Origin: Cloeon dipterum | Lineage: Eukaryota; Arthropoda; Insecta; Ephemeroptera; Baetidae | Reading direction: 5' to 3' | DNA: 64,000 bases | Assembly (NCBI RefSeq): GCF_949628265.1 | Contig: NC_088790.1 | Span: 17,116,545-17,180,544, forward strand | Part shown: in pieces, positions 1 to 56,380 of the stretch | Numbering within the stretch: the first letter of the stretch is position 1 | Layout of the letters: each line of letters begins with the position of its first letter | Notes under the pieces: model-generated | Seen by the model: the letters and a program-made list of their open reading frames with translations, nothing else | Database searches by the model: none | What the model was told of the DNA's origin: nothing | Position numbers and translations under genes: made by a program

Positions 1-743
1 CATTTGACCACACCCTAGATGGCTTTGCGATTAAATTTGATTTCATCTTGACTGGTATTCTGGTGTACCCATAATATAAGTGACAATATAGTCTAATCAT
101 TTTTGGACACTGAACTATTTTTTCCAAAATGATATTTGATATTGGGGCCGTACGTTTCAAATAAAAATATGAATGAAGTTAAAAGAGAAAACAGTTGTAA
201 TTTAAACGAAATGATTTAACATTTTAAGATGCGTTGAAAACATAATAATAATTAACAAGAAACGCGGTTATATTATTTAGTAGATTCAAACAACTGCCTA
301 AAATTTTAATATTAAAAAAACGTAACTTTAGAATGTTGGTTTATAGCTTCTTTAAATAATTTTTAGATATAACAGACCTCAATAAACATGCAAAATTGCG
401 TTTTTAGAGGATTTTTAATAACAATCAACGAATAAAGTTTCTGGCCTAGAGCACAGCATCGTTTTTTATGTCGACTCATATGAATGTGTTAAATGCTTTA
501 ATTTTTAGCTGTTTTTTTTTTGTATCGTTATAACATATTCATGCTTCATGAATTTCTTTCAAGATAAGTTTATTTTCCTTTCGAAAGCTTTTTGTTTCCA
601 TGTTTTTTTTTTATTTTCATGTGCCTATTTATCCTCCTACAAGAACAAAAAACCCACTTACACAACAAACGTTCACCATAGTTCAATATTTTGTAAAAGA
701 CACGTCGCGAAAATTGATAAATCTATTTTGATCAAGATATTAC
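1..743. other. Gene-free left edge, probably intron of transporter A
   Basis: No coding segment is visible here on either strand. Transporter A on the minus strand ends its second coding exon at 744 with a good GT donor, so this AT-rich stretch is most simply the first part of a long intron, with the remaining exons beyond the left edge. Confidence 0.5.
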
Positions 744-1461
744 CTGTGATCACTCTGCCCACGTAGAGCATGTTGACCGACGAGGCCCAGAGGATGAGTG
801 CCCATCCGATGGCGAAGGGTACGGCCGTCCAGAACATGGTTTGCTTGCGTCCGATCTTGTCCACGAGGTATCCGGCTGGGAAGTTGGAGGCGGCCGCGCC
901 CAGCGTCAGCAAAGAGCCGACCCACGCGAACTCGGAAGGGGTTACCTGCAGCGGGCCTCCCTGGACATGGCTACTTGCGGGCGATGACCAGCCGATGACT
1001 GTACCTAGGGCGAAGGCACCCAAGCCAGCTGCAAATACACACAATTTGATTATTTTGCAATTTTATGGTTTAATTAATTTGATGATAATTGTGCCAAAAT
1101 AAAAACTTTGGAAAAGAACAGCCCACTACACACGAAGCATTAAATTACTTCTAAAATGAATAGTTAAGTTTGAATCCAAAAAATGAGATAGCGTTCAAAA
1201 CTATTCAAATCAAAAATTAAAAATCAGGATTTTTATTTAAAAAATATTGAATAAACAGTTATCAAATGAACTAGTTAAATTAATTATCTTATTTTCAAGC
1301 TTTGTGAAAACATTATTAAACTTATGAATACCAGATATCGCAGCCATATACTGGGTCAGTCTGCGAGGCTTCTGGCCTGCCGCCTCTTCAGCCTTGAGAT
1401 TGGCTGCCACCGAGTCCACAGATCCAGTAACCAGCGTGGCCGTGCTTGCTGTTGCGCTCAT
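744..1461 (-). CDS. Tret1-like sugar transporter A, 5' part only
   Basis: This is the N-terminal part of a 12-helix major facilitator sugar transporter of the insect trehalose-facilitator type (SLC2 relatives), which moves trehalose or hexose across the plasma membrane. Coding exons are 1461-1332 (start ATG, about 43 residues, cytoplasmic, rich in Ala, Ser and Thr) and 1028-744. The second exon shows helix 1 (FALGTVIGWSSPA), the helix 2-3 loop with the family motif DKIGRK, and VGRVITG at the end of helix 4. Exon 1 ends in phase 1 and joins the acceptor at 1029-1032 in frame. Unlike genes B, C and D to its right, it has no intron after the helix 3 'IG' position, so it belongs to an older branch. 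The remaining helices are outside the window; if they do not exist there, this is a truncated copy. Confidence 0.8.
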
Positions 1462-1744
1462 TCTTGTATTGTTGTTTTTCTTGATAAAAACTATGAATCC
1501 GTCTTTCTAGGCTGTCACCTGAAACGAAATTTTATAAATAAAATAGTTATTTTGCCCAAACTTAGGATCAATAGCCCCTATTTTTATAAAAAAGTATTTT
1601 AATTAGATTTTCAAGCTCTTCGAGTCTGGAGGAGAAGCGGTAGTGAAAATTTTTGGAACATGTGTGACAAATAAAACTAACATGTACACTGAGATTAAAA
1701 ATTGGTTTGAATCAATTTCAAAAAAAAAAACAAGTCTCTTAATT

Positions 1745-1772
1745 TTTGGTGTAGAATTATTTCTACACCAAA
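1745..1772. repeat. Perfect short palindrome
   Basis: Two 12-base arms (TTTGGTGTAGAA and its exact reverse complement) flank a 4-base loop TTAT. Imperfect pairing continues several bases outward on both sides. A related piece (TTACACCAAATCAA) lies 40 bp further on. It could be a relic of a palindromic transposon end or simply a cruciform-prone sequence. Confidence 0.6.
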
Positions 1773-4700
1773 CTAATTGCAAGTTAAATGTTTAGTTACA
1801 CCAAATCAATTTAGCTCAACATGAAAAATGAAAAGTGGAAAGACTATCAACGTTGACCTATTCACAATTGCAGCGCAGGTGCGTGCGGATGACAGTGTCT
1901 AGCGTTGCTGTAAATTGATAAGTCTGTGCAAGCGATTAGCACTTATTTGCTAACCATTTTTTCTCCTCCTCCGTCCTCGCATCAAAACGCATTAAATTAA
2001 TTGCCCTGCAATGAAAATCTCCGGTCTTTGTTTTTTATTATTTGCTTCGTTATATACACCGGGAATGTGTTCCAGGCCGCAGAGAGATAAAATTGCTCAA
2101 ACATTTGCGTTGGAATCGTTCAAACGCAAACACGTGTTCCTTGCTCTTGCTCTACGTTTTGTTTGCGCTAGAGTTTGTACGTTTTCAAACTGGAGTACCT
2201 ATTCCTTTGTAGGTTGTTGGGAAACGCCTTTTTAAGAAATAATATATTCGTTTTATTTTCGAACGCGTTCGTTGGCTGACTTGTCAATATAAAATGTTTC
2301 CTTGTTAAGTTTCCTTTTCGACTGTGCGCCAAAACACGTCTTTCAACGATCACGGGGATTTTTGTTCGCACACCTTCTTGTTGTATTTTCTATCTGATTT
2401 TATCCTCATTCCTGTTTGCGTTACAAGTGAGACTGTTTGGTGCAAAACCTGTCTTCGCAAACGGAATTCCCCGAACACGCTGTGCCCTCTTGCAGCTTCG
2501 TAAATATTCATTCAGAGGTTCCTAACCTTTCCAGCTATGCTCGATAAAAGGAGCGTGAAGCAGGTTCTGAAATTTACTCTTGCTGACGAATCACCTTTTC
2601 GTCATTTTGACCTTTGTCTTAGCAACATGTTTTTCGGAACTAATTGAATTTTGAAATTTTCTTCACAAACAAAATTCCACAGAACTCACTAAGGGTGTCG
2701 AAATAATTAACTTTCAGCTATGCATAATTAAAACAGATGCTTTCTTGAGTTGACATTGCTAGAGAAAAATTTAGACAGATAGATTTGTTCGTTAAACCAA
2801 TGGTGTACGAGTAGACAATTAGTTAACGATTTTTTTAGGAAGCAGCTTGAGTGAGTAGAGATAATTTTTAAATTTCATTTCCGTTCAAAACAAATTTGTG
2901 ATAACAGTAATAAAGTTTGTTGATCATTCCATTAACGGTTGATTTTTCTTTCGGTTGATGGAAGCTCGCCTAAATGTCCAACATAATTTAACAAAGACCT
3001 ACTAAGCTATTTTCACGTCTCGCCCCATTGATAGCAGTTAATTTTCTTTTCAAGGAGAGAGAGTTAGCGACGCAGGAACCGCGCTAAATTTACTCTCTTG
3101 ACGAGGTATTTAATTAGGCGCTACACAAAGTGAATGTCAATGTCAGGCTCTTGATCGCGCACGCGACACGTTTGTTCGCTAATTCTTTCTCATCCGTGTT
3201 GGCCGCCAATTATCACTCCCGACTGCTATTGTTGCGTTTATGCGGTTAGTTGCATTGAAGCAAAGGAAAGAAAGGCTGTGCACGTAGTCCGTTTGAAAGG
3301 GAAACTATGACGCCGGTCACGTAAACATCCTCAGCCTTTTTTTTTGTTATTCATTGCCGGGTTTTATCTACTTGCGTTTATAGTAAGGAGTAATATGTTA
3401 TTTCTAGGTTACACTTATAAAAACAGGAGCAAAAAGAAAATTAGGCTTTTGAAAACGACAAAAAATAGGATTTCTTATTAAGTAGCAACGCAAGAAAGAG
3501 ATATCAGATTTCTCCAAGATTCACAAAGTAGTAGTTATGGTTTCTAGGGGTCTCCGATTTTTTAGCAAACCAACGATTAAATAGAAAACCAATTAGTTCC
3601 GTGGCTGCGGTACTTAATCACCACATTTGGCAGTTAAATCACTACTTTTGAGGTATTCTAAATTATTCGTTATTTTTTTGCAGAAGCACCTTTTAACTGT
3701 ATGCAAAATTAATCACTAGATGAGAGCTGAACCAAAACATCTGCCGCATTTAAAAATAGAACAAATTTTTCGAGTAGCCCGCATTCCTTCATATATGCTT
3801 TCTAAGAAATTAAAATCGTGCATTTGAAAGACTAACTTTTTAACTAATTTTTTGGCTTATAAATATTATGGATGATATGGTAATAAGGCTGTCCACTCTG
3901 AATAAAAAATTTCGTATAAATTCCTTCCTTGAAACCACAGCAAAATTTAAATTCACACGATTTATGGCTAACAAATAGAGCGGAACTTACGTGTTCTGAT
4001 ATTGAACAGGAACGCCCCTCGAATCGCTATTTCGAGCAGCCAGCCAGCTCAGTCAGTCGTCTTGTCCCTGCGATGGCCACTAGCACTACTCCGCGGCCTG
4101 ATAACGAGTGTGGTGCCTGCCGCCGCACTTGCCTTTTCAAAGCACTGCACTGTTTTCCTCCTTCGACTTCCACGCTACAACTTAATAATGTACTTGGCTT
4201 TTCCCCGCCTCGTCCTGCCAGGAGGCAAGGAGAAATGGAAGTAATGTGGAAAATAATTTAACATCTCGCCATTGTTTACTAAATGATGATACGCCTTGTA
4301 ATTTAAAAAAAAAACATTCCATATATATGTTGTGTCGCACGCACTCTGTATAAAATAGCTTGCTTGCTGGAAGAAATAAAAACAAAGAATTTACAAAATG
4401 TTTTTTGTTACACAATATTTTGTGTCTGTAAAAGTGGATATAAATGAATCTTAAGATTTTCATTTTGCTTTGTTGTAACTTGTTGACTCTTTTGAACTCG
4501 CATTTGAAATGGGAATTTCCATTTTGAAATTCATGTTAGCCCTTAACTGATTATCCGGCCTTAAGGAGGAAGCTATTATTGAAACCAAATTTATCACAAC
4601 GTCATCAAGCGTTTCACCCAACAACTACGAACGATTCTGAAAAGGAACAAGTATTTAATTTATTTATTTTTCGCATAAAGTATGACGTGAAGATCTTTAA

Positions 4701-5342
4701 GTATTTTATTTGCTCGCTATTCTTGTTTGAGAGAAAATGTAACGTCGTGCGATTAGACCAATTGCTCGTTTACATTTTCAAAGTTGAATTCAAAATATTT
4801 TTTATGAAAATTTATTGTCTTAAAACAATTTTGTATATTTACTTGTTTAATTCACGATATATCAAGATAACAAGATAAAAATGATTAACTAAATCATTTT
4901 GAAAGGTTAATGACTGCAGCGAAATGAAACCAATAATAATGTATTGAAGCTTTTGATGATACAAATATTCAAACAAATGTTCCTATGAAAATGTCATTTA
5001 TTTAATAAAAAGCCCATTTAAATGAACGAAAGTAAAATCAAATAGAATTAGCGTTTTTTTTAATTTTGCTGTATAAATTAAATTTTGAAATTAATAACTT
5101 TCCTGGCAGATTCTATCCTGATTTTTAATCACTGACAGTGTAATGTTTTATTTATATATTCACCTATATAAGATAATGAACAGCATTCGATATACTATGT
5201 AAGTATTTGAATTAACATCCCAGAACGCGATATAATCTTTAATTAATTTTCACAACAATTAGCCAGCTATTTTTAGCTTTTTTAGAAACGTTTTGGCTGC
5301 CTTTATTGGCCTAAACAATAAACGACTAGTATTTTTACGCTT

Positions 5343-5389
5343 GGGGATTTCCGTGAAAGCTTACTCAGGGCAGGGAGCAGGGCTATATA
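5343..5389. promoter_or_regulatory. kappaB-like site next to a TATA box
   Basis: GGGGATTTCC at 5343-5352 fits the GGGRNNYYCC consensus bound by Rel/NF-kappaB proteins. TATATA at 5384-5389 lies about 30 bp further on. The pair resembles an immune-inducible insect promoter, but it lies beyond the 3' end of the lectin gene and no reading frame starts just downstream on the plus strand. It could drive a noncoding transcript, or on the minus strand a distant first exon of transporter A. Confidence 0.3.
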
Positions 5390-5440
5390 GAATCCCGTTT
5401 TTGGCAAGTGGGCCGTTCAATATCAACGTACCCAAGTATA

Positions 5441-5446
5441 TTTATT
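5441..5446 (-). terminator. Candidate polyadenylation signal of the lectin
   Basis: TTTATT on the plus strand reads AATAAA on the minus strand, about 115 bases after the lectin stop codon. Confidence 0.5.
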
Positions 5447-5560
5447 CGTGAGAAGTTTCTCTTTTCTTAATTCTTCTGAAATAAAATATATTTAAGATAT
5501 CAGCAATTTTTTTTTAAATTTCCTTGGTGATGTGATCAGTAACAAAGTGCAGTGATAGTG

Positions 5561-6957
5561 TTAAGTTCTGCTAACTAGCTCGCAAATATAATTGGAATGG
5601 ACAAAGCAGTCCTCATCATTCCACCCAATATTGCCCTTGAGGTCTGAAAACTGAACGCATGACTCGTTGCCCTTTGCATTGTTCGGCTCCTTTTTGTTCC
5701 AAGAAGCGAATTCAAGGCGCTGACCAGTCGTCGACCAATAAAAGGCTCCGTCTTCAGCACCAAGGCGAGTTGCCGAAAGCCAGAAATTGTCAATGATGGT
5801 CACCTTTCCTACAACCCATATAAAATTAACTTCAAATAAACATTGCACGGTCAAATTAATAAGGTTTAAAAATATGTTTCTAGAATAAATGAAATAAGAG
5901 CCACGTGATTGTGGTGCATCAAACCTAGTGCTTTGACAAGATGGTAATTTTCTTCGGCAGTCTCGATAGTGGCTAGCTGCATTCCCAGAGATCTGCACGC
6001 CCGCACAGCCGTGAACCAGTTCTCCTGGCAAGTTACCAAACGAATTTTTAAATTTGTACATTAGATGCGGTACCTCTGATTAAACGACCTTCTTTAAACT
6101 GATGAAGTAGCAACCACTAAGCGTGTTGATTTCTAAAACGATTCCGTCCGGCTCTAAACACCAGTTTCCAATAACATACAACGCAATAAATCCATTTAAT
6201 TGAAATCAAATTCACCTTTCCTAATCGCTGAACACCGCTGGTGCAGCTGTAAAATCAACTTCAATTATTAAAAATCTTTCAGACATTTAAAATTTTACAT
6301 CCTGCTCTTCCTCCTCAACGCATTTTTTCGTCAGCCTTGAGGTGAAGTTGCTGAAGATTTGTTCAATCCTTTGGGGAAGCAATTATCTATTTATCCAGCA
6401 GTTTAAACAAATGACGCACCTCAAATTGCAGTTCTCATTGTGCAACTGCTTCTCCATTTCGCAGGCTCGTAACTTTTGCTCGCACAATGCGAGTTGGTAT
6501 TCTTGGTTAATTCCTGTCAACCTGGAGTTTTCCTCCTTAAAACTTTGCGTCACGCTAATCAGCAATTGTAGATCCACGACCTTTTCTCGTGCGCAGTTCA
6601 GTTCTGTTTGCAAGGTGGCCAATTTCTGTTCGCAAGTTGCACTGTTACAAAATTAATTTTTGGAAATCAAATCAACCCTCGCTGGATCAATTAGTTAACA
6701 CCCTTAAATAATAAGGTACACGTCACCTCGAGTTATCTGGAATGGCTGCACTGTCGGTAGCCTGCAAATAAATAAATTTGTTTAGCACGCAATTCCAGAA
6801 AATAATTAATAAAAAAACAAATGGAATAATTCTTGAACTCAGAAAGCCTATTTACCTGAATGTTTTTCGATTGTAACGCAGCATTCTCGGCGCCGGCATA
6901 ACGACACCAGTGAAGCATAAGTGCGACGACGAGGAAAAGAGCCTGATTTGGAGCCAT
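5561..6957 (-). CDS. Secreted C-type lectin with coiled-coil stalk
   Basis: A secreted sugar-binding protein of 284 residues, likely used in immune recognition. Eight coding exons join in frame: 6957-6856, 6761-6727, 6641-6420, 6350-6299, 6246-6216, 6153-6089, 6024-5925, 5808-5561. Residues 1-23 are a signal peptide (hydrophobic core ALFLVVALML, cut after AGA); an upstream in-frame start at 7053 would bury it, so the inner ATG is chosen. Residues about 46-120 are charged and heptad-like (coiled coil). The lectin domain runs from about 160 to 281 and opens with GCYFIS. It has the calcium/sugar motifs EPN (243-245, typical of mannose-type specificity), Glu251 and WND (265-267), plus Cys253, Cys270 and Cys278. 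The donor after exon 6 (AAG|GTCGTT) is weak but gives the expected alignment. The gene sits between two sugar transporter genes on the same strand. The fold assignment is firm; the ligand and role are inferred. Confidence 0.88.
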
Positions 6958-7823
6958 GTTTTTGCGCAACTGACGCGCTGAGTGTTTCTTATTGAACGCG
7001 GCACTACAGCAACGCTGACCTTTCTCACCGCGAGCGAGATAGAGCAAAGTCACGAACCCGAAGTGTGACCCAACACAAAGGAGTCATTGGCAGCACACAA
7101 TAATATTAAAAACTCATATCATTAGCATGGAAAATAACCTTGTCTTCTTTAAGAATTTTAACGAAATAGAAGAAAATTTTATTTTTATTATTTTTGCAAG
7201 ACTACACACTTAGAATACGAGTTGTGCAGATAAGTTTTTAACAACTTATGTGCGTTCCTATGATGCAAAGTTGAAAAAAGGGGCAGCTTCAGAGCTGATT
7301 ATACAACTATAGTTGAGTTTATCTATCATTGTTGCTGTTTATTCATCATCTGTCTGCAGCGATCTAGCTTGATAACATATTTAACTAAAGGATTTTTGAA
7401 AATTTATTATTTATTCCTTTGATGAAAGAAACCTTAAAATTGTGTATCAAGTGACTATTTTTGTGCAGCGGGGACGTATGTCTCACACACTTCTCAGCTG
7501 GCTGACAAACTAGGTAAAGGGCAATCATTGATATTTGTCTCTTTGATTCATTTCGCGCTTAAGCGATAAGCTCAATGGTCAAAACAACAGTAGAATCAAA
7601 CAGATCATGATACTTATCATAAAGCAATTTCAATTGCATTTTAATTGCTCGAGTAAAATAAGTGATTTATCTATTTATAACAGGAAAATTAACATCGGAA
7701 CATTTTCAAGGTGCACATTGTGAGGTGGCATTGATATTACTGTTGAACTCCACTTAAGAATTTTAATCATTTCAACACATGTGATATGCAGTCTTACGTC
7801 ACAACACAATTTATAGCGATAAG
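6958..7823. other. Spacer between lectin start and transporter B end
   Basis: This holds the lectin promoter and 5' leader on its left side and the 3' end of transporter B on its right. I see no other gene and no clear TATA box. Confidence 0.5.
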
Positions 7824-10301
7824 TTAGTCCTTGGCTCCGAGTTCCTTGAGGATTTGCTCGTTGGTTTTGCCCTTGGTCTCGGGCAGAACGAAGAGGACAA
7901 AAGCAGCCCCCAAGAAGCAGCAGCCACCGAAAATCCAAAAGGTGGTGTAATTATTCAGGGCAGCCACCATATCTGCGTAGAACAGCGTGACCAGGAAGGC
8001 AAGCAGCCAGTTCGAAGTGGCGCCGATCGCGCTGGCAGGCCCTTTCACCTGCGGCGCGAAGATCTCAGCGGCCACCACCCACACGACGGGACCAGCGCCG
8101 AACGAGAAGAAAATAATGTAAAGCACCAGCAAAGTTACTGGCAGCCATCCTTGCTCCACTAGTTCATTCTGAAAGAAAAATATTTATTTTTATTTAAAAA
8201 TGAACTGAATTGAACTCTAAATATTTTATACCATTTTAAGAGAATAAATTGTCTTAGATAATTACAAAACCTTTTTAAGGATTTCCAAAATTATCGAGAA
8301 ATTGCTGCAATAATTTTTTAGATTCTTTTTTGTATTTTTTATTTAATTCTTTGCAAAAATCCACTTATACTTCATACATCTTTTAAATGCGCTCGAATAA
8401 AATTCATTTTGGGTCAGTTTTCGTGCCTGGTACCAAAAACAAAAAATTTTCAAAACTTAGATGAAATAAAAATAAACAATCTAAGTAGCCAATTATAAAC
8501 CATGGAAAGAAGGGTCCAAAAATATTCAATCTAACCTGATAAAAGAAGTAAAAGCCGAGGATGACGATGAATACACCCATTGCTACCGCGGAAACAAGCA
8601 AAAGCAGTTTTCTTCCCAAACGGTCGACAACCAATGAGGCGGGGACGGTGGCTGCAACTTGTACGGCGCCAATAATGATGCTGTTGATGTTGGGGTCGAG
8701 GGTGGAGCCGGCGCTTTCAAATATGCTGTTGGCGTAGAACAGCACCGCATTGATGCCCGACAATTGTTGCAGGAAGAAAACACCGAACAAAATTAAAATT
8801 CCCTTCAAGGCGAGACGGTCGCCGAACATTGCAAAAAACGAAATCTGTGATTTAAAAACAAAATAATCATTGATTTTAATTTGAAAATAACGCTTTTCAC
8901 CTTGTTGTTCCTTTCCTGCTCCTCTGCGTTCTTCATGTCTTCAAGCTCGTTCTTTATATCGCAGTGAGCGCCACGGAACCACTGCAACGATTTTGTAGCC
9001 TCATCGACCTTTCCTCTCCTCAACAGGTATTGAGGTGTTTCAGGCATCCAGAAGAAACAAGCAGCGAACGCAATGGGCACGATTGCGCATATTAAGGATA
9101 ACCTAATACGTTCGGGTTAGATTTTACTGTAGTGAAAATTAAATAGTTCGAATTTATTTTGATAAAAATTAAATATTCTTACCAAAAAACGGGAACAAAG
9201 GCACCAATTATGTAGCTGAAGAGGATTCCAATAACAACTAAAAGCTGGAAGAAAGAACTGAGCAATCCACGGATCTTAGTGTCAGAGATCTCGGCGATGT
9301 ACATCGGAGAAGCCACACAGAAGAGGCCACCGCAGAAGCCTGCGATGAACCGTCCCACGATCAGCATTTCGACCGCCGCTGGCCAGATAATAAACGCCCA
9401 ACCTGTTGACAATTTTCAATTAATATTTTTTGTTCACAAGAATTGTCAGAGATTACCTATGACGAAAGGTATGGAGATGAAAAGCATGGTGTATTTTCTT
9501 CCGATCCAATCGACGAGAAAGCCGGTTGGCAGGCAGGATACGGCAGCGCCCAGATTTACGACGGAGCCAACCCAAGAAAACTCGGACGTGCTGACAGTAA
9601 AGCTGAAGACTTCACCAGTAAGAATTGGGGTTTGTGCAGGCGATGACCATCCGAGAACCGTGCCCAACGCCATCGCGCCCAGCGTCGCTTTAATGCACGC
9701 AGACACAGATTTTTTCAAAATATAAATCATGCAATTTGTTTCATAATTTTAGCAAAAAATCTCACTTAAGTGGCTTTCTTACTTGAAGCCATTCGTATCT
9801 TTTGTAAATCTAAATTTGTGTACAGATGAAATTTACGAAAGTTACCTGCAAGAGCGGCGATGTACTGAGTCTTGGTACTGCCATTTGTGTTCGCGCTTAC
9901 CTCTCCTTTATCCACTACGAAATAAATTGTTTTTAAAAATTGTCACTTAAAACTTTGCTCTCAGCGTATTGGAATTTAAGAAATATTTCGGAAGAATTTT
10001 GTTTTAAAAATGTCTGTTTTATAACCAAAAAACTATTGATCTGATGTTTTTGGACCAGTTAAGCACAAAAATTGTTCTTAACTATTGGTAAAATCAGGTT
10101 TTATCAGCGCAATTAAATTATAAGAAAATCTGGAATGCAAGTAACAAAATGCTAGGGATAGTTTTAGACTTTATCTGTTATTACAAAAGACTGCATTTCT
10201 CTTCACGGGTATTAAAATGCCGTTCTAAAGCGATTGAATCTCCAGCACTACTTGAGAACTCTTTTAATAATTCACACCGCTATTGAAATCATTCACTTAC
10301 T
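7824..10301 (-). CDS. Tret1: Tret1-like trehalose transporter B
   Basis: A complete 458-residue sugar facilitator, close in size to other insect trehalose transporters, expected in the plasma membrane with 12 helices. Coding exons: 10301 (single base A), 9914-9846, 9687-9457, 9402-9183, 9102-8901, 8844-8536, 8168-7824. The start codon is split: exon 1 ends in A before a strong GTAAGT donor, and the next exon begins TG. Family marks are DWIGRK after helix 2, VGRFIAGFCGG in helix 4, PETPQYLL after helix 6, QQLSGINAVLFY in helix 7, DRLGRK after helix 8 and PETKGKT after helix 12. It is the leftmost of three close paralogs (B, C, D) in the same orientation. The substrate could be trehalose or a hexose; the sequence alone does not decide. 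Confidence 0.9.
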
Positions 10302-10344
10302 TTTAATGCAGGCTAGTGCGTGCAGTGGAAGGTTCGCGTTTTGC

Positions 10345-10428
10345 CCAACTGGCTATTTGGGAATTTTTCTATGGTCCGTCTGCTCTCAACCGATACGCTT
10401 TATTATCAAAATCACTTGAAATAATCAA
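10345..10428 (-). promoter_or_regulatory. Promoter block of B, conserved with C
   Basis: Two blocks are shared with the region upstream of gene C. CCAACTGGCTATTTGGGAATT (10345-10365; here quoted in two parts CCAACTGGCT and ATTTGGGAATT) has a near copy at 14859-14880. AAATCACTTGAAATAATCAA (10409-10428) is identical at 14930-14949. Most of the surrounding sequence has drifted, so the conservation suggests function. The second block contains TCAAGTG on the minus strand, which matches the binding core of NK-2 class homeodomains. Confidence 0.5.
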
Positions 10429-11048
10429 TCCACTCCCGTAAAAGCGGGTAAAAAATATCTTCAATGAATTTTCACGCCGAACTGATTAAATGATTTTCGA
10501 TTAATTAAATGGAAATGGCAATTTAGCAATTTCTTACAATTAGTCATATTTGATCAGTATGTCATGAAAAAAAATATGATTTTATTTAAAATGCTTTTAT
10601 ACATTCAATTCACTTTGGTCTTCAACCAGAAAGACATAGTTATTCTGTGCAAACTCATACCAGTCTGTAGGAACTACGCTTTACGAAATATCAAAATAGT
10701 CAGATGTGTCAGTGGCGCGGAAGCCACCCTTGCGGTCAACCACTTTCCCCGCAGATAAAATTTTGATTAAATGCTGTGCTTGTAAAAAAACTTAGCTCAC
10801 TTTACTCCAAAAATCATACCGCCCACCAAATCAAAGCAAACGTCCCTTTTAGATAATATATTTTTCTGCAAAATCAGCGCATCAAACTAAAACACTGTAG
10901 TCTGTTTTCAATTTTTCTCAATAAAACACTATATCCAACATCGTAGGCTATATGAATAATTTCTTAATTTGTCTTATGAGTAGGACAACCATTTACTAAA
11001 CAATTATAGTAACGTTGTTATTGCGAAGCATCATTTTCAAATTCCTGT

Positions 11049-11226
11049 TTGGAGTAAAACATATCCGCCTCTACGACAATGAGTAATCTGTAAGAGATTT
11101 TAAGATAAAATTTTATGATTACTTAACCTCCAAAGAATATTGTGCATATAAAGACCAACAAATTGTCTTTTATGGCGAGAAACACCATCAAGTTTAACTT
11201 GAAACGAGAGAGAGATAATGTAAAGT
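11049..11226. repeat. Duplicated upstream segment, copy near B
   Basis: Similar by eye to 18491-18676. Shared pieces include CATATCCGCCTC/CATATCCGTCTC, GAGTAATCT and CTTGAAACGA followed by GATAA. The copies lie roughly 0.75-1.1 kb upstream of transporters B and D and probably came along with the gene duplication. See the copy near D for a possible small coding segment. Confidence 0.45.
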
Positions 11227-11599
11227 GTTTTCCTTTTACGTAATCGAACGGCAATCATAACGAAATCATGCGATCCTGCTCTTGTGAATTTATACAATAA
11301 TCTAAATGAGTTTTAATAAAAAAATAACTATACTATCATAGGAATAGTAAATTTTATATACAAAAGATACTTCCCAGAATAAAATAAAGGTCCTTATGGA
11401 GGTGTCCCTATTGTATTTTACATAACATGATAAGAAAAAAAATGGTTGGATTTTTACTGAGCAAAACGTCTTTATTCACAAATGATGTTCTGTCAAATTT
11501 GTATCAAATAATTTATCATGAATTTTTCAGCATAGAATATGAGTCGAAAATAGTTTGACAGCAGATTGTTACAAGCACAAAATGGTTATTAATGCGCAT

Positions 11600-11739
11600 C
11601 GTCCTGGTCCCGGCAAAATTGCGTAACTTTCAACAACCAAACGAGAATTTCCTTATTGCAACAAAAGGTCAACAATCAATTCGACAATGTAAATTTGGGT
11701 GTTTGTTGAGCGTTGCGCAATTTTGCCGGGACCAGGACG
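11600..11739. mobile_element. 140-bp foldback (MITE-like) element
   Basis: The ends are inverted repeats: the first 28 bases, starting CGTCCTGGTCCCGGC, match the reverse complement of the last 28 with one mismatch, and weaker pairing continues through most of each half. The element is flanked on both sides by the direct repeat GCAT (11596-11599 and 11740-11743), as expected for a 4-bp target duplication. There is no coding capacity. It fits a small non-autonomous DNA transposon; I do not recognise the family. Confidence 0.65.
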
Positions 11740-12059
11740 GCATATTTCATTTGTTTCATGACTATAAATATTATATTTCGGTGGGTAGTGTTAATATTTA
11801 GTGTTGTTGTGGTTAATTGAATAAATACGTATAGTCTGCATTCAAATTTATTAGGTGACTCAACCAGAAGGTAAGACCGCTTTCAAGATTATATGAAATT
11901 TCCTTTTCTTCATTTGATCCAAATGTATAAGAAAAAATGAATCTAGAAAATAAATTAAAAACGTGAATTGTATCTTTATTGTAGAGAGCAAGCTATTTAA
12001 TCATGTAAGTCAACTCCATTACTTGAGAGATTATAGATACATATTTGTACATAATTCAT

Positions 12060-12065
12060 TTTATT
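12060..12065 (-). terminator. Candidate polyadenylation signal of transporter C
   Basis: AATAAA on the minus strand, about 80 bases after the stop codon of C. A second copy lies at 11975-11980. Confidence 0.45.
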
Positions 12066-12146
12066 CAATGATCCTTCGAGGAGTGATGGATTTTTTGCAA
12101 CAATGCCAAATTGCAAACAACTATATTACATATAAATTAAAACGTC

Positions 12147-14810
12147 CTAATCTTTTCCTCTGAGTTCTTTAAGAATTTGTGCAGTTGTTTTTCCCTTTGT
12201 CTCGGGAAGAGCGAAAAGGATAAAGGCTGCCCCCAAGAAGCAGCAGCCACCGAAAATCCAAAAAGTGGTGTTATTATTCAGGGCAGCCACCATATCTGCG
12301 TAGAACAGCGTGACTAGGAAGGCGAGCAGCCAGTTTGAAGTGGCACCGATCGCGCTGGCAGGCCCTTTCACCTGCGGCGCGAAGATCTCGGCGGTGACCA
12401 CCCACGCAACGGGGCCGGCACCAAATGAGTAGAAAATTACGTACAGCACCAACAAGGTTACCGGAAGCCATCCTTGGCTTACGAGCTGTACCTGAAAAAC
12501 GTTGCATTTTGTAAAATCAATTCAATCTTCTGTTATATCGTCTGTGAAATTAGTTTTAGCATGAGACGAAAATGTCAAATTACATGAGGAACAAAATTTA
12601 ATTGTTATATTTAATTTTGGAAAAACAATACCTGAAATTGTTCAAACTTTTCATAAAATAAAAATTAAAAATAATACATTTATAAATGAATCTATGTATG
12701 TGTCATATGATTTCTTCAATGAAATAATTTATAATATAATCTTCGATCAAAACGCTTACCCATTTTGTTTTTTAAATCTTATATTCTCTAAAAAAATATA
12801 TTCAGTTTAATATTTAAAATGAACCTCATTTAGAGAGACAGTTGAGTTGTCCAAAATTATTTGTAATTAGCCTGAGTACCTGATAAAAGAAGTAGAAGCC
12901 AAGGATAACAATGAGGATGCCCATTGCGACCGCCGAAATGAGCAAGAGTACTTTTCTTCCCAATCGGTCGACGACCAGTGATGCAGGAATGGTGGCTGCA
13001 ACCTGCACGGCTGCGACAATGATGCTGTTGATGTTGGGATCGAGAGTGGAGCCAGCGCTCTCAAAGATGCTGTTGGCATAGAATAGGACGGCGCTGTAGC
13101 CACACAGTTGTTGCATGAAGAAAACACCAAACACAATTAGAATTCCCTTCAAGGCTAGCCGGTCGCGGAACATGGCGATGAATGAAATCTAGAGAATTTT
13201 GGTTTTATTCTAACGTTGTTTTGAGAGCCAAAAGTTTTCAATTTTACGTGCAATTAAAAATATCTTTATACAAAATAACTTAATAACCCACGGAAATATT
13301 TAATTTCCACTATATTCAGTTGGATAAATTTATATTTAAAAACACGCAAATTGTGCTCTATTTTGACCTTATTTTTCTTTTCCTCCTCCCCATCATTCTT
13401 CATGTCTTCAAGCTCATTCTTGATATCACAATAGGGTCCGCGAAACCACTGCAGCGATTTTCTGGCCTCGTCGACCTTTTCACTTCTCAGAAGGTACTGT
13501 GGCGTCTCAGGCATCCAGAAGAAGCAAGCAGCGAACAAAACTGGTATAACCGCGCATACTATTGAAAACCTTTAAATCAAATTATTTTTTAACAAATTTT
13601 GTTAATTAAAATTTTCTTACCAAAAGACTGGAACAAAAGCACCGATGACGTAACTGAAGAGAATACCAACGCAGATCAAGAGCTCAAAGAAAGAACTGAG
13701 CAAACCGCGGATTTTGGTGTCCGAAATCTCGGCAATGTACATCGGAGCAGCCACGCAGAACAGGCCGCCGCAGAAGCCTACAATGAAGCGCCCCACGATC
13801 AGCATTTCAACCGCTGCTGGCCAGATAATGAAAGTCCAACCTTAAACAGGACAATTTATTCAAAAAGATCAATCAAGAGGCTATTAACGTTAGTTGCCTA
13901 TTATGAAAGGTATTGAGATAAAGAGCATGGTGTATTTCCTTCCGATCCAATCGACGAGGAAGCCGGTTGGCAGGCAAGATATGGCAGCACCCAGATTGAC
14001 GATTGAGCCGACCCACGAAAATTCTGTGTCACTCACAGAGAAGCTATAGACATCGCCAGCAAGAACGGGACTTTGCACTGGCGATGACCAACCAAGCACC
14101 GTTCCCAATGCCATCGCGCCCAACGTTGCTAATTTGGACAGTAAAAAATTAGTTAACTCTGGGACAATAAATAACAATTTCAAATATTGGATTCCCGGTA
14201 TTTTCAGCTCGGCATATTTTGACTCGAGCTCTTCTCGGAGCGGAAACCTTTATCGACGTCCAGCAGATCTTGCGCGACTCAGGCTGCGGCGCCGGCGACG
14301 CTGTCAGCGTGAATTTCACGTTCCTTAATCAGGAAGGCGACCGAATGTTCCACAACGCTGAAGTTGGCCCATCAGTTGGGAACGAAAGTATTTCGTTTCT
14401 GCTAAATAGAGAGACTTGAGCTAAATACCTGAAATTGAGGCTATGTACTGGTTCTTGGTGCTCCCCTTGCTTCTACTAATTTCTGCTTCTCCCACTGTTT
14501 AAAAAATGTGATGGCAAAGTAAAAAATTTGGATTTTTTTTAGTTTTTTTTATGTTAAGGCTATGTTGAAATTTTTGTCTCATCTCCTTCGATCAGTTTTT
14601 GGAGGAGAACTAGCAAAAAATAACAATTCACGTGAAATCGATTTCATAAGATTTAATTGATGGTGGCAATCAACAATAGTCCTTGGTCACGAGGTGCACG
14701 TGAACTTCACTCTAATTTGTAGATTTTTAAATATTATTTCACTCAAATAATGTTACTTTTCAGAATGAGTACTTGATTAGTTGTCTTGATGAAATCATTA
14801 CCGACTTACT
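12147..14810 (-). CDS. Tret1: Tret1-like trehalose transporter C
   Basis: A complete 457-residue paralog of B. Coding exons: 14810 (single base A), 14494-14429, 14128-13898, 13840-13621, 13569-13368, 13188-12880, 12491-12147. The start codon is split A|TG exactly as in B, after a GTAAGT donor. The exon ending at 13898 is followed by GCAACT, not GT; B and D have GT at this position, so this is read as a GC-AG intron, and exon length and phase (231 nt) support that. Motifs DWIGRK, VGRFIVGFCGG, PETPQYLL, QQLCGYSAVLFY, DRLGRK and PETKGKT are present. The helix 7 motif has CGYSA where B has SGINA, which could alter substrate affinity. An antisense tan-like fragment lies in the intron between 14129 and 14428. 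Confidence 0.9.
14208..14387 (+). pseudogene. tan-like (peptidase C45) exon fragment
   Basis: Inside an intron of transporter C, on the opposite strand, lies a GC-richer 180-nt segment. It has an acceptor (TATTTTCAG at its left), an open frame and a GT donor at its right. The frame reads HILTRALL, ILRDSGCGAGD, VNFTFLNQEGDR and HNAEVGPS. From memory this resembles the middle of Drosophila tan, the N-beta-alanyl-dopamine/carcinine hydrolase of the peptidase C45 family. The piece starts and ends in phase 1. No other tan exon, start or catalytic cysteine is visible nearby, so this is most likely an orphan exon left by duplication or transposition. It could instead be part of a gene with very long introns. 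Homology is recalled, not computed. Confidence 0.5.
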
Positions 14811-14858
14811 TTTTTGTGGGCTACTAAAAAATACGTGCAGCTTAGATTTCACGCTTGG

Positions 14859-14949
14859 CCAACTGTCTATTTGGGGAATTCTCGACAGTGTGATTTGTCA
14901 GTTCCAAATCGATATACTTGATATAATCTAAATCACTTGAAATAATCAA
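14859..14949 (-). promoter_or_regulatory. Promoter block of C, conserved with B
   Basis: The counterpart of 10345-10428. CCAACTGTCT followed by ATTTGGGGAATT, and then an exact 20-base match AAATCACTTGAAATAATCAA at 14930-14949, lie 50-140 bp upstream of the first base of the split ATG. The spacing to the start is nearly the same as in B. Confidence 0.5.
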
Positions 14950-15027
14950 CTCCTTCTCCGTCAGAGTGGGTACAAACATCTGACTCAATTAAAATGCATT
15001 TTTTTATTCTAAGAAAGCAGTTCAATG

Positions 15028-15033
15028 TTTATT
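15028..15033 (-). terminator. Candidate polyadenylation signal of transporter D
   Basis: AATAAA on the minus strand, about 95 bases after the stop of D and about 80 bases before the conserved promoter block of C. Confidence 0.45.
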
Positions 15034-15125
15034 CATTGTTTGGTCAACAGATAATCAAACATTTGATCGATTAAAAGCATTCTGTAGGCAGTCTTACGTC
15101 AAAATACATAAATTACTCTCTCAAC

Positions 15126-17572
15126 TTAATCCTTGGAACCGAGCTCCTTGAGGATTTGCTGGTTGGTTTTGCCCTTGGTCTCGGGCAGGAAGAAAAGGAT
15201 GAAGGCCGCTCCCAAGAAGCAGCAGCCACCGAAAATCCAGAAGGTGGTGTAATTTTGCACTGCTTCCACCAAGTCGGCGTAGAATAACGTGACTAGGAAA
15301 GCCAGAGTCCAGCTGAAGGTGGCACTGATTGCACTGGCTGGACCTTTCACCTGGGGGGCGAACATTTCGGAGCAGACGACCCACACGACGGGACCGGCGC
15401 CGAAGGAGAAGAAAATTATGTACAGCACCAGCAGGGTCACTGGGAGCCACCCTTGTGTTGACCACATATCCTTTAATAAAAATTGTTCTTATTTAAAAAA
15501 GAACTAAAGCTGAGGAAAATTTCAGGCTTAATTTACACATTTTTACAAACAAATAGACGTTTTTACATTTAGATTTTCGGACCTGATATAAGAAGTAGAA
15601 GCCAAGGATGACGATAAAAACGCCCATTGCGATGCTCGAGATGAGCAAGAGCAGCTTCCTTCCCAAACGGTCGACAACGAGCGAGGCTGGAATTGTGGCC
15701 GCAACCTGCACAGCGCCAACAATGATGCTGTTGATGTCAGTGTCGAGTGTTGATCCAGCGTCCGAGAAAATACTGTTTGCGTAGAAGAGGACTGCGTTGA
15801 TGCCGGAAAACTGCTGCATCGCGAACAAGCCGAACATTATGAGCATTCCCTTAATGGCGATCTTATTGCGGAACATGGCGATGAATGAGATCTGCGAAAA
15901 AGATGTCATTTGGTGAATTAAAATTTAAAATGTTTTCCATGTGGCATTTTGTTGCTGGATGAAAAACAATTTAGTATTTTATAGAATGTGCTTGATTTTT
16001 TTCCTGTTTCAAAATTCCAGAAAGTTATAAAATGGTTAGAAGCGTGCCTGCGATTTTAAGGCCTGATCAAAATCCCTCATGATCGATCATTTTTCCATGT
16101 TTCTTTCCTTACTATCAAGATCATAATTAATTAACTATATATCATTTAATCTTTTCAAATAAAAAATGCGGATCAGGTGAAACAGTCTACCTTATTTTTC
16201 CTTTCATCCTCTACAGCTTCTTTCATACTATCCAGCTCTTTTTTGATATCGTAGTCCTTGCCGCGGAACCATTGCAACGCCTTGGTGGCTTCCACATCCT
16301 TTCCTTTGCGAAGCAGGTATTGAGGTGTCTCTGGCATCCAGAAGAAACACACGGCAAACACTATCGGAATAATGCCACTGATCGCAGACAGCCTGTTGAG
16401 GACGGTTGTGATTAGTTTATTTGGACATTAGGTTAAATTTAAAATCGTTTGCTACCAGAAAATAGGAACAAAGGCGCCGATGATGTAGCTTATGAGGATG
16501 CCGATGACGAGCAAAAGCTGAAAGAAAGAACTGAGCAATCCACGGATCTTGATGTCGCATATCTCGGTGATGTACATGGGCGATGCCACGCAGAAAAGGC
16601 CGCCGCAGAAACCAGTGATCAGTCGACCAGCGATCAGCATCCCGACTGCTGCTGGCCACACTATAAAGGCCCAGCCTAAAAATGACAATAAATTTAACAT
16701 TCTGATTTGTTTGGCTAAATTTTACTTTATAAAAGGAAAAGGCTCTGAATTTGATGAAATTTCTACATCGAACGACTGAAATATCGACTTCAATCGTGTC
16801 TAGAAAAATGTCATCAAAATTTGATCGCAAAAATTCATTTCTGGTATTTTATTTCCACTGAGAAAGCTCAAATTCACAGTGAACTGTATTTGATCTAATC
16901 CATGATAGCATAAGTTTAGGTTATTTTAATTTAAATACAATACAATTTTTCAGCTAATATTTGTGGTCAGTATATTTTTACCTATTACAAATGGAATCGA
17001 GATGAAGAGCATGGTGTATTTTCTTCCGATCCAATCGACGAGGAAGCCGGTCGGCAGGCAAGACAAGGCAGCGCCAAGAGGAACGACGGAACTGATCCAG
17101 GAGAATTCTGTGACACTGACAGAGAAGCCATAGACGTCACCAGCGAGGATGGGGATTTGCGCTGGCGATGACCATCCAAGAACTGTGCCCAACGCCATCG
17201 CGCCCAGCGTCGCTGTTTCAAGCAATATTTAATTATTTTATAACGTTTTATTTTGCATAAATAATTAAATTTGATCTATTTTTCCAATGCAAAAGGCGTA
17301 ATAAAAGAGTACTAGCTGATACTTCTTCTTAATGGGGTCCATATTTCACGGAAAAAATATTTTTCAATATATATTTAATATTATATAACAATATTTATGT
17401 TTCAAAATGTTGTAAAAATTGATTGTATTATTAGAGTTGCACGCATATGCGTTTAATAATAAATACATTCAATATTTATGTTTCAATGAATATTGGATTA
17501 TTACAAAACCCAAATCTCACCTGCGGCAGCAGCGACAAATTGCGTCAAGGTACTGCTTTTGTTCGACTTCAT
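15126..17572 (-). CDS. Tret1: Tret1-like trehalose transporter D
   Basis: A complete 452-residue paralog of B and C. Coding exons: 17572-17521, 17212-16982, 16675-16456, 16392-16191, 15891-15583, 15470-15126. The last five have the same lengths as in B and C. The start is a normal unsplit ATG eleven bases into the exon that in B and C begins with TG, so the initiator position has shifted in this lineage. Motifs DWIGRK, AGRLITGFCGG, PETPQYLL, QQFSGINAVLFY, DRLGRK and PETKGKT are intact. It is the first gene of the D-C-B tandem in transcription direction. No copy of the B/C promoter block was found upstream, so its expression may differ. Confidence 0.9.
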
Positions 17573-34978: not shown

Positions 34979-37900
34979 ATGCTACGAGAACTGGTCAAGT
35001 GGGTGCTCAACAACTACCTGAGCAACTACGTTGAGAACTTGAGCATTGACCAGCTCAGCATCGCCCTTCTGCAGGGTAATTCATTGAAGATGTCTAAAAA
35101 TTGTTTTGATTAATGGCTTTTCAAAACTGTCACTGCTTCTGCGTTGGATTTGACGTGTCTTGCTTATTTTGGTTTCTGCAAGTTTCTATTTATAAGCACT
35201 GAGTCAATAAAATTTCTGGTTCATTTGACGTGTACATAAATCGCTTATCATTTTATTCTGTTAACAGCTTTGTTCGGTTTGAAATACATACGTACATTTA
35301 TTAGATTTGTTAAAAATTTGATGAACCTTTATCTTGTTTACATTTTTCAGTTTGATTACAATATTACTGTCGAGTGTTGTTTTATCTCTTCGAGCTTTTT
35401 TTGAAATTTCGCGTGGAATAATAAAGTCTTGCAGTTGTCAAATAATAATAAATACAATTTGTCTTTAATACCATGATCCAAGTGTTTATCGAGTTATTTT
35501 TATTTAACATTTTAGGAGAGGTGGAATTAGAAAACGTTCCATTGCGGAAGGATGCATTCCACCACCTACGGCTGCCGGTGTGCATCACCTCGGGCCTCAT
35601 CGGGACTGTCAAGTTGCAGATTCCGGTCAGGTACATCCGGACGGCGCCCTGGGTGATCATCCTTGAAAAACTCTATCTGACTGCTTCCCCCTATAAGACT
35701 GATGAGGTTAAAAAACCTTGGTGACAAAAGTGGAGTGCTAAACTATTGTTTTTTCATTGCTAGTTTGATCCAAAATTTGAGGAGCAATTAATTCAAGATG
35801 ACAAGCTGCGCAGCCTGGATATGCTGGAGGCCATATGGAGGGCTGAACACCAGTCTGAAGTGTCTGGTGGTAGCTCCAGCTTCTACTCTTCCAGCTGCAG
35901 CTCATGGATGAGTTTTACGTCTGGTCTTGTCACAAATATTGTCGAAAATGTGCAGGTTTGTTTAGACAAAAAATGCTGCTCATATGCACCTTACTAATTG
36001 AGCTAAATCTCAGCTGAAGATTAAAGATGTGCACATCCGATTTGAGGATGACACATCTATTCCAGGTCAGGTTGTGGCTGCTGGATTCACCCTGAAAACC
36101 CTGACAGCAAATACATGCACATCAAACTGGACACCGGGATATGTGTCTATCGACTCATCATCTGAAGCTTTCAAACTGGTTGAGCTGACAGATGCTGCAC
36201 TGTACTGGGACACAAATGCAACTATTTTTGGAAATTTGCCACCAAATCTATTCTCTGTACGTTACATACAATTATCTCCCATTTAAATATTCAAGCAAAT
36301 ATTTTTTAACGTTTTGGTAAAGTTTTTAATCAAGTTACCATGAATTTTACTTAATTTAACTCTTCTTAATTTCATAAAATAACAAAATCTTCAGAATTTC
36401 ACACTTTTTCATTACTTAGTTATACTAATAGCCCAAATTTTGCAGGCTGCAATGCAAACTGCAATGGAAGCCTGCAAGCCGGAGAGTTTTGTATTGTCTC
36501 CTGTGAGTGCACAGGCAAGGCTAAAGAGGAACCGTTCTGAGCTGCCTCTGAAGTCACGCAACCAGCCTAGGATTGTGTGTGATCTGATGCTAGAGACAAT
36601 CCAATTCTCAGTCACCGATGTACTAACAAAACTTGCCTTTCATAAACTGTTTATGTTCAATTTTCGTATTTATTCAGGTGCAATATGATCAGATGGTCGG
36701 TTGCTCCAGAGGCTTGAAGGCTATTGGCCTCCAGCGGGAGGCTTCTTTGGGACAGACAAGCTGTCCTAGGAATGACGCTCAAGCTCTCTGGCACTGGGCT
36801 TTTTGGAGGGCATTGACCTTGAGCAGGGTCAGCCAGCAGTACATAGAAACCTACACCCAGTACCTGCTTATGCCAAACAGCTTCAGTCAGGAGGCAAAAG
36901 TCTTCAAAGACACCATTGAATTGAGGCATGTTTCAGAATCAGCTTAATTGAGTTGGTAAATGATTGACTTTTCAACTCAGGTACTCTTGTGAAGCCTTAC
37001 AAGAGTTGCGTGAGAAAGCCATGCAGAATGCTGCATCCAAGCTTGTGGACTACGAAACTAAAGGCTGGAGTGTGCCTGGGGCTGGAATTCTTCTGCAGTG
37101 GTTCCCCCTGTGGACAGGATGGTATGCTGCACCTGCCCTGCCAGAGCAGGTGCCAAAGTAAGCGATCTTGTTTATTTTCTCTCCATTTAAACACACATAA
37201 CATTATTTTAACTGAAACAGATCAGTCGAAAATTTAAACAACCAAACAAATAATTATAAAATAGAACAAGGGAATATTAATCACTATTATTCAGATTTTA
37301 ATATTAAAAAAGAGCAAAAACACATTGCATAGGTTGTAAATCAGCTGTCTATTTATTGAATGTTTATTTTCATACTTAATAATGTACATTAATTAATGTA
37401 ATTAAAAGTCAATTGAAATAGAAAGTATGTGAAAGGGTGACACTTCTGGAAAATAAGTGACTAAGACCCTTCCCTGGAGAACAAAGCCAAAGTGAGCCCA
37501 GACTAGTACAAATCATAAAAGATATCACAAGAAATCACACATCAAAATCTTGTTGTCACATACGCCTTTCATAGGGAAGGAAACTGCCGCAGAGTAGTCT
37601 TTCAATATGGGTGGCATATAATCGTTCACGAAAGTCAAACATATTTTTGCTGAGGGCAGGGCGAGACAGTGCAAGGATGCAGCAGATCGTCGCCGCGCTT
37701 CACACGCCTCAGTATGATTTGTGCTATCGCGTCATAGTTGGTGTGGCACTTTGTCAAAAGCTTTGTCGCTTTCATTAATTATATAATGGGATTAAATTAA
37801 TTCAACTTGCTATTTACCTTTAATATGTGTATCACGCACAAATGTTTAGATCTCCGGACGAGGCTCAAACCTTGGAGGACGAGCTACTGCATGCTTTAAG

Positions 37901-54375: not shown

Positions 54376-56380
54376 TCAATCATCTGGGTTCTGGGATAGC
54401 AGGAAATTAGCTGCCAAGTTTTCATTTTTCTCACAGGCAAAGTAGGCTTGCACCACCAAATGCTCAGGAAATCCCAGATCCTTTAGCTGCAGACCAAATT
54501 AAGTTACAATTTCGTTCAAATTATATAATTCATTATGCTGATTTACCCTGTCAATGGCCAGTTTATCCTGTGGGGAAATTTGAATTGTTTGTGTTGGGAC
54601 ACCTTCACCATCGTCCTCGGCCAAAGCTGCCGCCGCTGCCGTGGCGTGTCTCGGCGTTGCATCTCCTACAAAGACAAAACAGTTAGAGTGACAATATATA
54701 AAATTACAAAACTTTTTGAGTGAGACTAGAATTTTTACTTTGCTATTTTAGATTCCCTTGGAATGTTGAAATAAAGATTTTTTACGTCACTTCAATCAGT
54801 AAGTCAAAAATACTTTTTAGTGCCCAACTTCATGTTGGTTTTAACACATAGATTGGCCAAGCATAAACTGACTTGAATTTTTTGCTCTTGTTTATCTCTA
54901 ATGTGATAGTGATTTTTCAAGAGGGCTAGCAAAAGTTATCTGAATTTGGAACAATTTTTAACAAGACATAGAGGAACAAAATCTGTTTTCAATTGAGTTC
55001 TCATATAAGTTAAATAAATTAAATTTTTTGTGTCCATGAAAATATTAGTCAAGAATATATTTTCATATTTGGAATCTTTAAACTGTTTTCAAGTGCAGAG
55101 CTACCGCCTCTGGAACAATCTTCCGACGAATTTGTGTCTCAACGGAAACCAAAGTGCATTCAAGGAATTTTTAAAAGAACAGTACCTCAAGAAATATTGA
55201 ATCACCTCTCTTTTATACAATTATGTTCAAACTGATATTATTTTGTCTGGATATGGCAATGTATGGGGCAAAATAGCCCTGCAGAACCATAATAAAGATT
55301 ACTTTGAAACTAAATAAAAATATCAAGTGAATAGTATGTTCCGTACCTGCTGCTGGCTCATTCATCATGCGGACAAAGGCCTCCTGGTTTTCAGTGATCA
55401 TCTGCAGCAGGGCAGGGTTATTCTGTCCTATCTGCTGCAAAACTGCGTTCAGCAGCTGCGGATCCTGCTGCACAACCTGACGCATTTGCTGGAATTGCGG
55501 CTGCGTGCGAAGGAAAGCCAGAGGGTCCTCTCGGCCTGAATATGAGTATTTTATCAGGCAACCTTAAAATTGTGATAACAACATACCTTCAGGTTGCTCC
55601 CTTTCTAGTCCGCCCACGTCGATTGCCCTTTCCTCGACGGGGTCGTCCAGGTTCAGGTTGGGTATGCCCGAGATGAGGTATTCAACAGCCCTGTCAGGGT
55701 TGTTGAAGGAGGCTCTAAGGGCTACCCGGACTTCACTCTCAGGGTAGCCCATGTCTACTATGTTGCGCACCATCACCTGAAACTCGTCCGGAGGCAAAAT
55801 AACCGAGTCTCCAGCTGCTGCACCCGATCCGCCTTCAGCTTGTGCAGTCCTTTCTTCAGCCCTGTATTTAAGACTTAATTTTGGTTTTAAAAGGAACTAT
55901 GGGTGTCAAACCTTATGGGATTTGATTCAGGGGCACTGGGCTGCTCTTCCTCTGTACTTATTTCCCTAGGGTCAGATGGAGTTACGTCTAGAGGCGCCTC
56001 TTTAGGCTTTGTCACTAGGCACACGATAAATTTCTTTTCGTCGATGTTCAGAGAACTAATCAAGCTCGGGTCCTCCAAAATTTTACCTAAGTTTTTCAAA
56101 ATAAAATCCATTATCCTTCAGAATTCATTTGAAAATTACGGCCAACCTGAGTAGATCAGTTTTTGCATGGTAGCATTGTACTGATGAGCACCCTTTTCCT
56201 TTTCGATTTTCTCCTTCAGTTGCTTGACCTGCGAAACGCATCGCAAAATTTAGGCAAATGAATTGAAATTTTGATGAATCATGTAGATTGAGTGCGCATT
56301 TCACTGTTACGCACCGTGCTGGTGGCCGCAATTTCGATTTGGAACGTCTCCTGCTGCAGGTTCTTGACGGTCACCTTCAT
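54376..56380 (-). CDS. Rad23: Rad23, UBL-UBA repair and proteasome shuttle
   Basis: A 338-residue protein that binds XPC in nucleotide excision repair and carries ubiquitinated proteins to the proteasome. Coding exons: 56380-56315, 56228-56147, 56086-55912, 55861-55587, 55535-55347, 54665-54547, 54486-54376. Domains: ubiquitin-like at 1-77 (starts [13 protein letters not shown]), UBA1 at about 130-172 ([14 protein letters not shown]), the XPC-binding four-helix part at about 200-260 ([20 protein letters not shown]), and UBA2 at about 296-335 ([21 protein letters not shown]), ending in NPDD. It is shorter than human RAD23B because the linkers are reduced. It is transcribed away from QNG1 from a shared promoter. 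The intron between exons 5 and 6 carries a retrotransposon fragment. Confidence 0.95.
55084..55199 (+). mobile_element. 3' end of a non-LTR retrotransposon ORF
   Basis: In an intron of Rad23, antisense to it, the plus strand reads [15 protein letters not shown], then [13 protein letters not shown] and a stop. The pattern (RLWNxLP, then about 20 residues to a FKxxLK... terminus) is typical of the C-terminal end of LINE reverse-transcriptase ORFs. The upstream sequence does not continue recognisably, so this looks like a 5'-truncated insertion. The clade cannot be set from this length. Confidence 0.5.

Follow-up and report, generated by a model that had tools for sequence, protein, structure and literature searches.

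Why does an intron of a minus-strand sugar transporter gene in Cloeon dipterum carry, on the opposite strand, an open reading frame that resembles the middle of the insect gene tan? A sequence-only reading of the region had described an exon at 14208-14387, with an acceptor, a donor and a symmetric phase 1-1, and had taken it either for an orphan exon copied from a tan-family gene or for part of a nested or very long gene. The window is the whole stretch of DNA that was analysed, 64,000 nt in length (C5:17116545-17180544); all positions are given within it unless a contig or locus is named, and the genome searches covered 190 Mb in 10 contigs.

A tan fragment in the intron of transporter C

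Transporter C, a minus-strand gene, forms a tandem set together with its paralogs, labelled B and D, and is recognized as a sugar transporter by the Pfam family Sugar_tr (PF00083), so the placement inside a transporter intron on the opposite strand had been described correctly. The exon boundary at this intron is common to paralogs B and D. Both host splice sites and the branch-like ACTAAT fall outside the insert (Table 1), and removal of the copy leaves 85 nt with GT...AG. In the transporter pre-mRNA, the insert should be spliced out within the 300-nt intron, and it is probably without function. As surrogates of an empty site, the paralog introns (B, 158 nt; D, 308 nt) gave word matches of only 6-11 nt to the native intron parts of C, with a best E-value of 0.31. 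The splice model of transporter C is provisional at the first exon/start and at two junctions. Its 456-codon frame depends on a GC donor at 13897-13896, after the second exon, and the gene appears to use this donor, which reads AG/GCAACT (13898-13896, minus strand) versus AG/GT in B and D. With GT donors only, no combination extended beyond 101 codons.

Table 1. Positions of the copied block and of its host gene in the window
Position	Strand	Feature	Basis or remark
12147..14495	-	Transporter C, 456-codon open frame ending with TAG at 12147	Best outcome among 48 combinations of splice sites
14129..14428	-	Intron of transporter C that hosts the copy, 300 nt in all and 85 nt once the insert is removed	GT 14428-14427, AG 14130-14129, phase 1
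14148..14153	-	Branch-like ACTAAT about 20 nt before the intron AG, outside the insert	Motif recognized by eye
14175..14389	+	Probable templated insertion, 215-nt copy of C1:4286997-4287211	Genome search and gap-free alignment
14175..14207	+	3' end of the tan intron (33 nt) with its splice site AG (14206-14207), 1 difference (14190)	
14177..14181	+	ATTTC, with a direct repeat at 14390-14394 that adjoins the insert on its right	Could reflect microhomology used in priming or a target duplication of 5 nt
14208..14389	+	182 of the 235 nt of the tan exon, counted from its start; 5 differences, frame open	Alignment; PF03417 match
14388..14389	+	GT previously read as a donor: the copy ends with these two bases, on the right breakpoint; not the donor of tan	

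A genome search with 14150-14430, which passes over very common words, returned a sole non-self match, C1:4286997-4287211 (97%, 215 nt, E-value 1.1e-98; 2/2 candidates scored). Positions 14175-14389 (plus strand) are a gap-free copy of this locus, which lies inside the tan gene, with 97.2% identity (209/215), and judged by this alignment their likeness to tan is not a product of chance. The alignment breaks off abruptly at 14175 and at 14389, and neither flank resembles that of tan. The block is thus templated from one distant and unique locus on another contig (2/2 candidates scored); no third copy of the 215-nt piece was found in the 190-Mb search. Comparison of the window with 40 kb around tan gave no second match at E < 0.001, the next best having an E-value of 0.004. 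When L002:1-2800, from the tan locus on C1, was searched against the genome, 38 of the best 40 of 504 matches belonged to a dispersed repeat, and the other two were the region itself and the window copy; no further tan exon was among them. This repeat occupies a tan intron (L002 about 779-1068) and has at least 38 matches (best 40 of 504). An Rfam search of the window gave 0 matches. The insert is conspicuous because of its GC content, which is 52% as opposed to 29% in the native intron.

At the parent locus on C1 (L002), three exons in succession (235, 235 and 301 nt) combine into one open 256-aa frame matching PF03417 (E-value 5.3e-44) and the NCBIfam family C45_proenzyme (87.6 bits against a cut-off of 85). 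These three joined exons demonstrate that the donor locus is intact, i.e., that the fragment was copied rather than excised; the exons further upstream were seen only as open stretches. Genome-wide, PF03417 was found only in the C1 gene, where its two matches are the exons that flank the copied one (4/4 candidates scored). We take this gene to be tan, whereas the analysis itself shows a single gene of the C45 family; a search for PDB relatives of its protein gave 0 matches at E-value 0.1. The tan gene is reported to encode an NBAD hydrolase that is self-processed at Gly121-Cys122 (PMC5085778). The likely counterpart of this site is NDGTG/CSS, in an upstream exon near C1:4285450. Downstream of tan there is an about 360-bp repeat (L002:2829-3212) of satellite-unit-like length that occurs on C1-C5 and has at least 41 other matches, 39 of them at 92-95% identity and two at 90% and 79% (best 40 of 2678). 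Carriage of the insert by satellite or circular DNA was considered and rejected, as the ~360-bp repeat has no match in the window at E-value 0.001.

Reading frame, splice signals and differences from the parent

The 60 residues encoded at 14210-14389 (plus strand) match the Pfam family AAT (PF03417) with an E-value of 2.9e-5 and 24.3 bits against a cut-off of 23.2, and they are identical throughout to those encoded by the tan exon itself; an NCBIfam search with this piece gave nothing at E-value 0.1. An open tan-like frame on the plus strand is thus confirmed, and the genome search for a parent, proposed along with the sequence-only reading, bore out descent from a tan-family gene. The proposed coordinates, 14208-14387, and the status of an exon are not confirmed, as the copied block occupies 14175-14389 and begins within the tan intron. 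The acceptor described earlier is that of tan itself, copied along with the block. The donor does not withstand the comparison. The parent exon measures 235 nt (L002:1534-1768), and the copy lacks its last 53 nt together with the donor that follows, so that the acceptor is retained whereas the true donor is gone. The GT at 14388-14389 closes the copied codon AGT and is followed by the native ATTT. The resulting site, AAA/GTATTT, has no G at -1 and no G at +5, where the splice donor consensus has G at both positions. As this GT sits on the breakpoint, the symmetric phase 1-1 is fortuitous. The acceptor and the open frame are inherited from tan, whereas the donor and the phase symmetry are accidental. 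The copied frame runs on for nine codons into native sequence before a stop. The likely Gly-Cys nucleophile of a C45 enzyme is located in the upstream exon, outside the copied block, and the copied piece carries a different Gly-Cys, within DSGCGAG.

The six differences between copy and parent are all transitions; one falls in the intron part (14190), and all five in the exon are synonymous. The probability of such a 5/5 outcome is 0.0007-0.004 if all changes occurred on a neutral copy and 0.008-0.03 if they were spread over a neutral copy and a parent under constraint, the ranges varying with the transition bias. This pattern does not fit a long neutral drift of the copy. The likeliest explanation is a young insertion copied from a tan allele other than the assembled one; the simplest account of the all-synonymous pattern would be that the differences of such a source allele had already been filtered by selection. 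Purifying selection on the copy itself would also explain the five synonymous differences, with the piece being a plus-strand coding sequence, either a newly gained exon or a short peptide that ends in VGNESISFLLNRET before the stop. Nothing beyond the synonymous differences speaks for such selection, and we consider it highly improbable.

Origin of the insert

We propose, with a probability of about 0.8, that the insert is a templated-sequence insertion that arose in double-strand break repair and is of the class 2 TSI type. Hallmarks of such repair are microdeletion and microhomology, and the ATTTC at the two junctions may be a microhomology of this kind. A block from one locus, ends that ignore splice sites, the lack of poly(A) and an unrepeated right flank all fit an insertion of this kind. 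The insert starts within an intron of tan and ends within an exon, i.e., its breakpoints disregard gene structure. No poly(A) tract or signal was seen at the insert ends, both of which were read directly; AATAAATAA at the left lies outside the tan match, and there is no A-tract. The right flank (14390-15400) matches itself and three other places, all in the transporter cluster (4/4 candidates scored), and contains no dispersed repeat, while on the left there is intron and exon sequence of the transporter. Under the proposed scenario, a double-strand break would have occurred in a short intron of transporter C, of about 85 nt, and the gap would have been patched with about 215 nt copied from tan on another chromosome, while the donor gene stayed intact. 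As the copy includes 33 nt of intron, genomic DNA or unspliced tan RNA would have served as the template. Within the final 60 nt of the tan intron only one YTNAY with a branch-like A occurs (-40), and the left edge of the copy, at -33, lies 7 nt downstream of that A, which raises the remote idea of a tan splicing intermediate as the template.

Repair may have proceeded via alternative end joining, perhaps with polymerase theta as the maker of the insert. A gene for this enzyme was found on C5, where two matches represent polymerase domain exons (3/3 candidates scored) and helicase-like exons were recognized by eye just upstream. The best PDB match of the polymerase exon is DNA polymerase theta (E-value 5e-23), and by these matches the genome encodes the enzyme.

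The remaining explanations agree less well with these observations. On the sequence-only reading, the exon, orphan or nested, would be transcribed from the plus strand with splicing at 14207/14388, and its product would be antisense to transporter C. The 60-codon open frame, the copied tan acceptor, the synonymous exon differences and the weak GT at 14388 are in its favor, but an orphan exon and a nested or very long gene alike are contradicted by the missing 53 nt and real donor, by the 33 nt of intron that the copy carries and by the absence of the exon with the likely catalytic Gly-Cys (C1 about 4285450) and of any other tan exon nearby or other window match to the 40 kb around tan (E < 0.001), as well as by the restriction of PF03417 to two neighboring exons of the C1 gene (4/4 candidates scored). 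An expressed exon is thus scarcely credible. Nearly as hard to accept is that a DNA transposon (Helitron, MULE or MITE) picked up the tan fragment as cargo. Helitrons are described as taking up gene fragments, with one family studied in insects (PMC6544945), and a MITE-like element does occur in the window, but the copied block is single and directly adjoins native intron, nothing outside the transporter cluster matches its right flank, and the inverted repeats nearby are short and imperfect (three pairs, 75-86% complementary). Neither long terminal repeats in 14100-14460 nor any terminal motifs or repetition of the flanks were found.

Insertion of unspliced tan RNA by a reverse transcriptase (LINE-type, class 1), with ATTTC as the target duplication, is unlikely, though somewhat less so than the other alternatives. 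It would account for the ATTTC present at both 14177-14181 and 14390-14394, and human templated insertions are reported to be enriched in transcribed sequence and to be fewer under RT inhibitors (PMC5110952). However, neither end has a poly(A) tract, and the repeat is weak, as the left ATTTC is also the own sequence of tan and 24 of 647 nearby 5-mers (3.7%) would match equally well. Misplacement of tan sequence into C5 during assembly is very unlikely: the insert is known from one occurrence in one assembly, but its six differences from the parent, its position internal to a 33-Mb contig and its length of only 215 nt speak against a joining error.

We also searched the window for other templated insertions (16700-64000 and 1-13360). 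No second single-partner copy at >90% identity was present among the matches listed (best 39 of 91, 39 of 392, 39 of 644 and 39 of 742), which are dominated by repeats. At 11599-11739 there is a 141-bp palindromic, MITE-like element with 40-nt arms that are 90% complementary; it is 100% identical at three other places and has at least 40 matches at 90-100% (best 39 of 742). A 235-bp element at about 55080-55314 has sharp ends and only a 10-nt imperfect inverted repeat. Its matches number at least 38 at 89-100% identity, 28/38 of them at >=96% (best 39 of 644), by which it is a short element that has been spreading recently. An older dispersed repeat family is represented at 37350-37738, with at least 39 matches at 72-81% (best 39 of 392). 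Exact (TTAGG)5 runs numbered 0 in the 10 contigs, i.e., no canonical insect telomere array was seen in the assembly.

Implications and comparison with known systems

The copied tan fragment is most likely an ordinary genomic scar and not a hidden gene. An exon-like signal in an intron, even a convincing one, can thus be a repair scar, and a transporter intron can lengthen from about 85 to 300 nt in a single step. If such patches could be dated as a series in an insect that has polymerase theta, they would constitute a natural record of break repair, and all-synonymous differences offer a cheap test of whether patches copy alleles other than the assembled one.

As a piece of tan with 60 identical residues, the insert resembles the insect C45 hydrolase (PF03417), but with a truncated exon and without the donor and the nucleophile-bearing exon it is not a tan gene. 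Among the papers listed in literature searches, none names a tan fragment in a transporter intron in its title or abstract opening. In Drosophila copy number variation data, 41 of 50 insertions are given as having no genomic match (PMC4056370); going by this figure, it may be uncommon for flies to carry long copies of distant loci. Polymerase theta and alternative end joining have been tied to templated insertions at breaks in Drosophila (PMC2895639), and these insertions share with the insert their copying from a template, an insect host and the presence of a polymerase theta gene. As reported there, however, the templates are often adjacent, with repeats of 5-8 nt, whereas here 215 nt came from another chromosome. 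Capture of ectopic chromosomal sequence at break junctions, similar to that proposed here, is described for human fibroblasts, with microhomology-mediated template switching as the suggested mechanism (PMC5087911); those captures were obtained at reporter breaks and were mostly coupled to deletions, whereas our insert lies in an insect intron.

The closest parallel is found in the experimental templated insertions of human cells, which are reported to span 73-414 bp with a median of 191 and to keep the donor (Onozawa & Aplan, PMC5110952). Class 2 insertions are characterized there as lacking target duplications and poly(A). The insert differs from TSIP class 2 in occurring in an insect rather than in human, in being known from one assembly and in its possible ATTTC duplication. 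It agrees with that class in being a short copy of a distant unique locus with an intact donor and no poly(A), and its 215 nt fall inside the range of the human insertions. The phenomenon is already known, and the insert is a fresh example of it.
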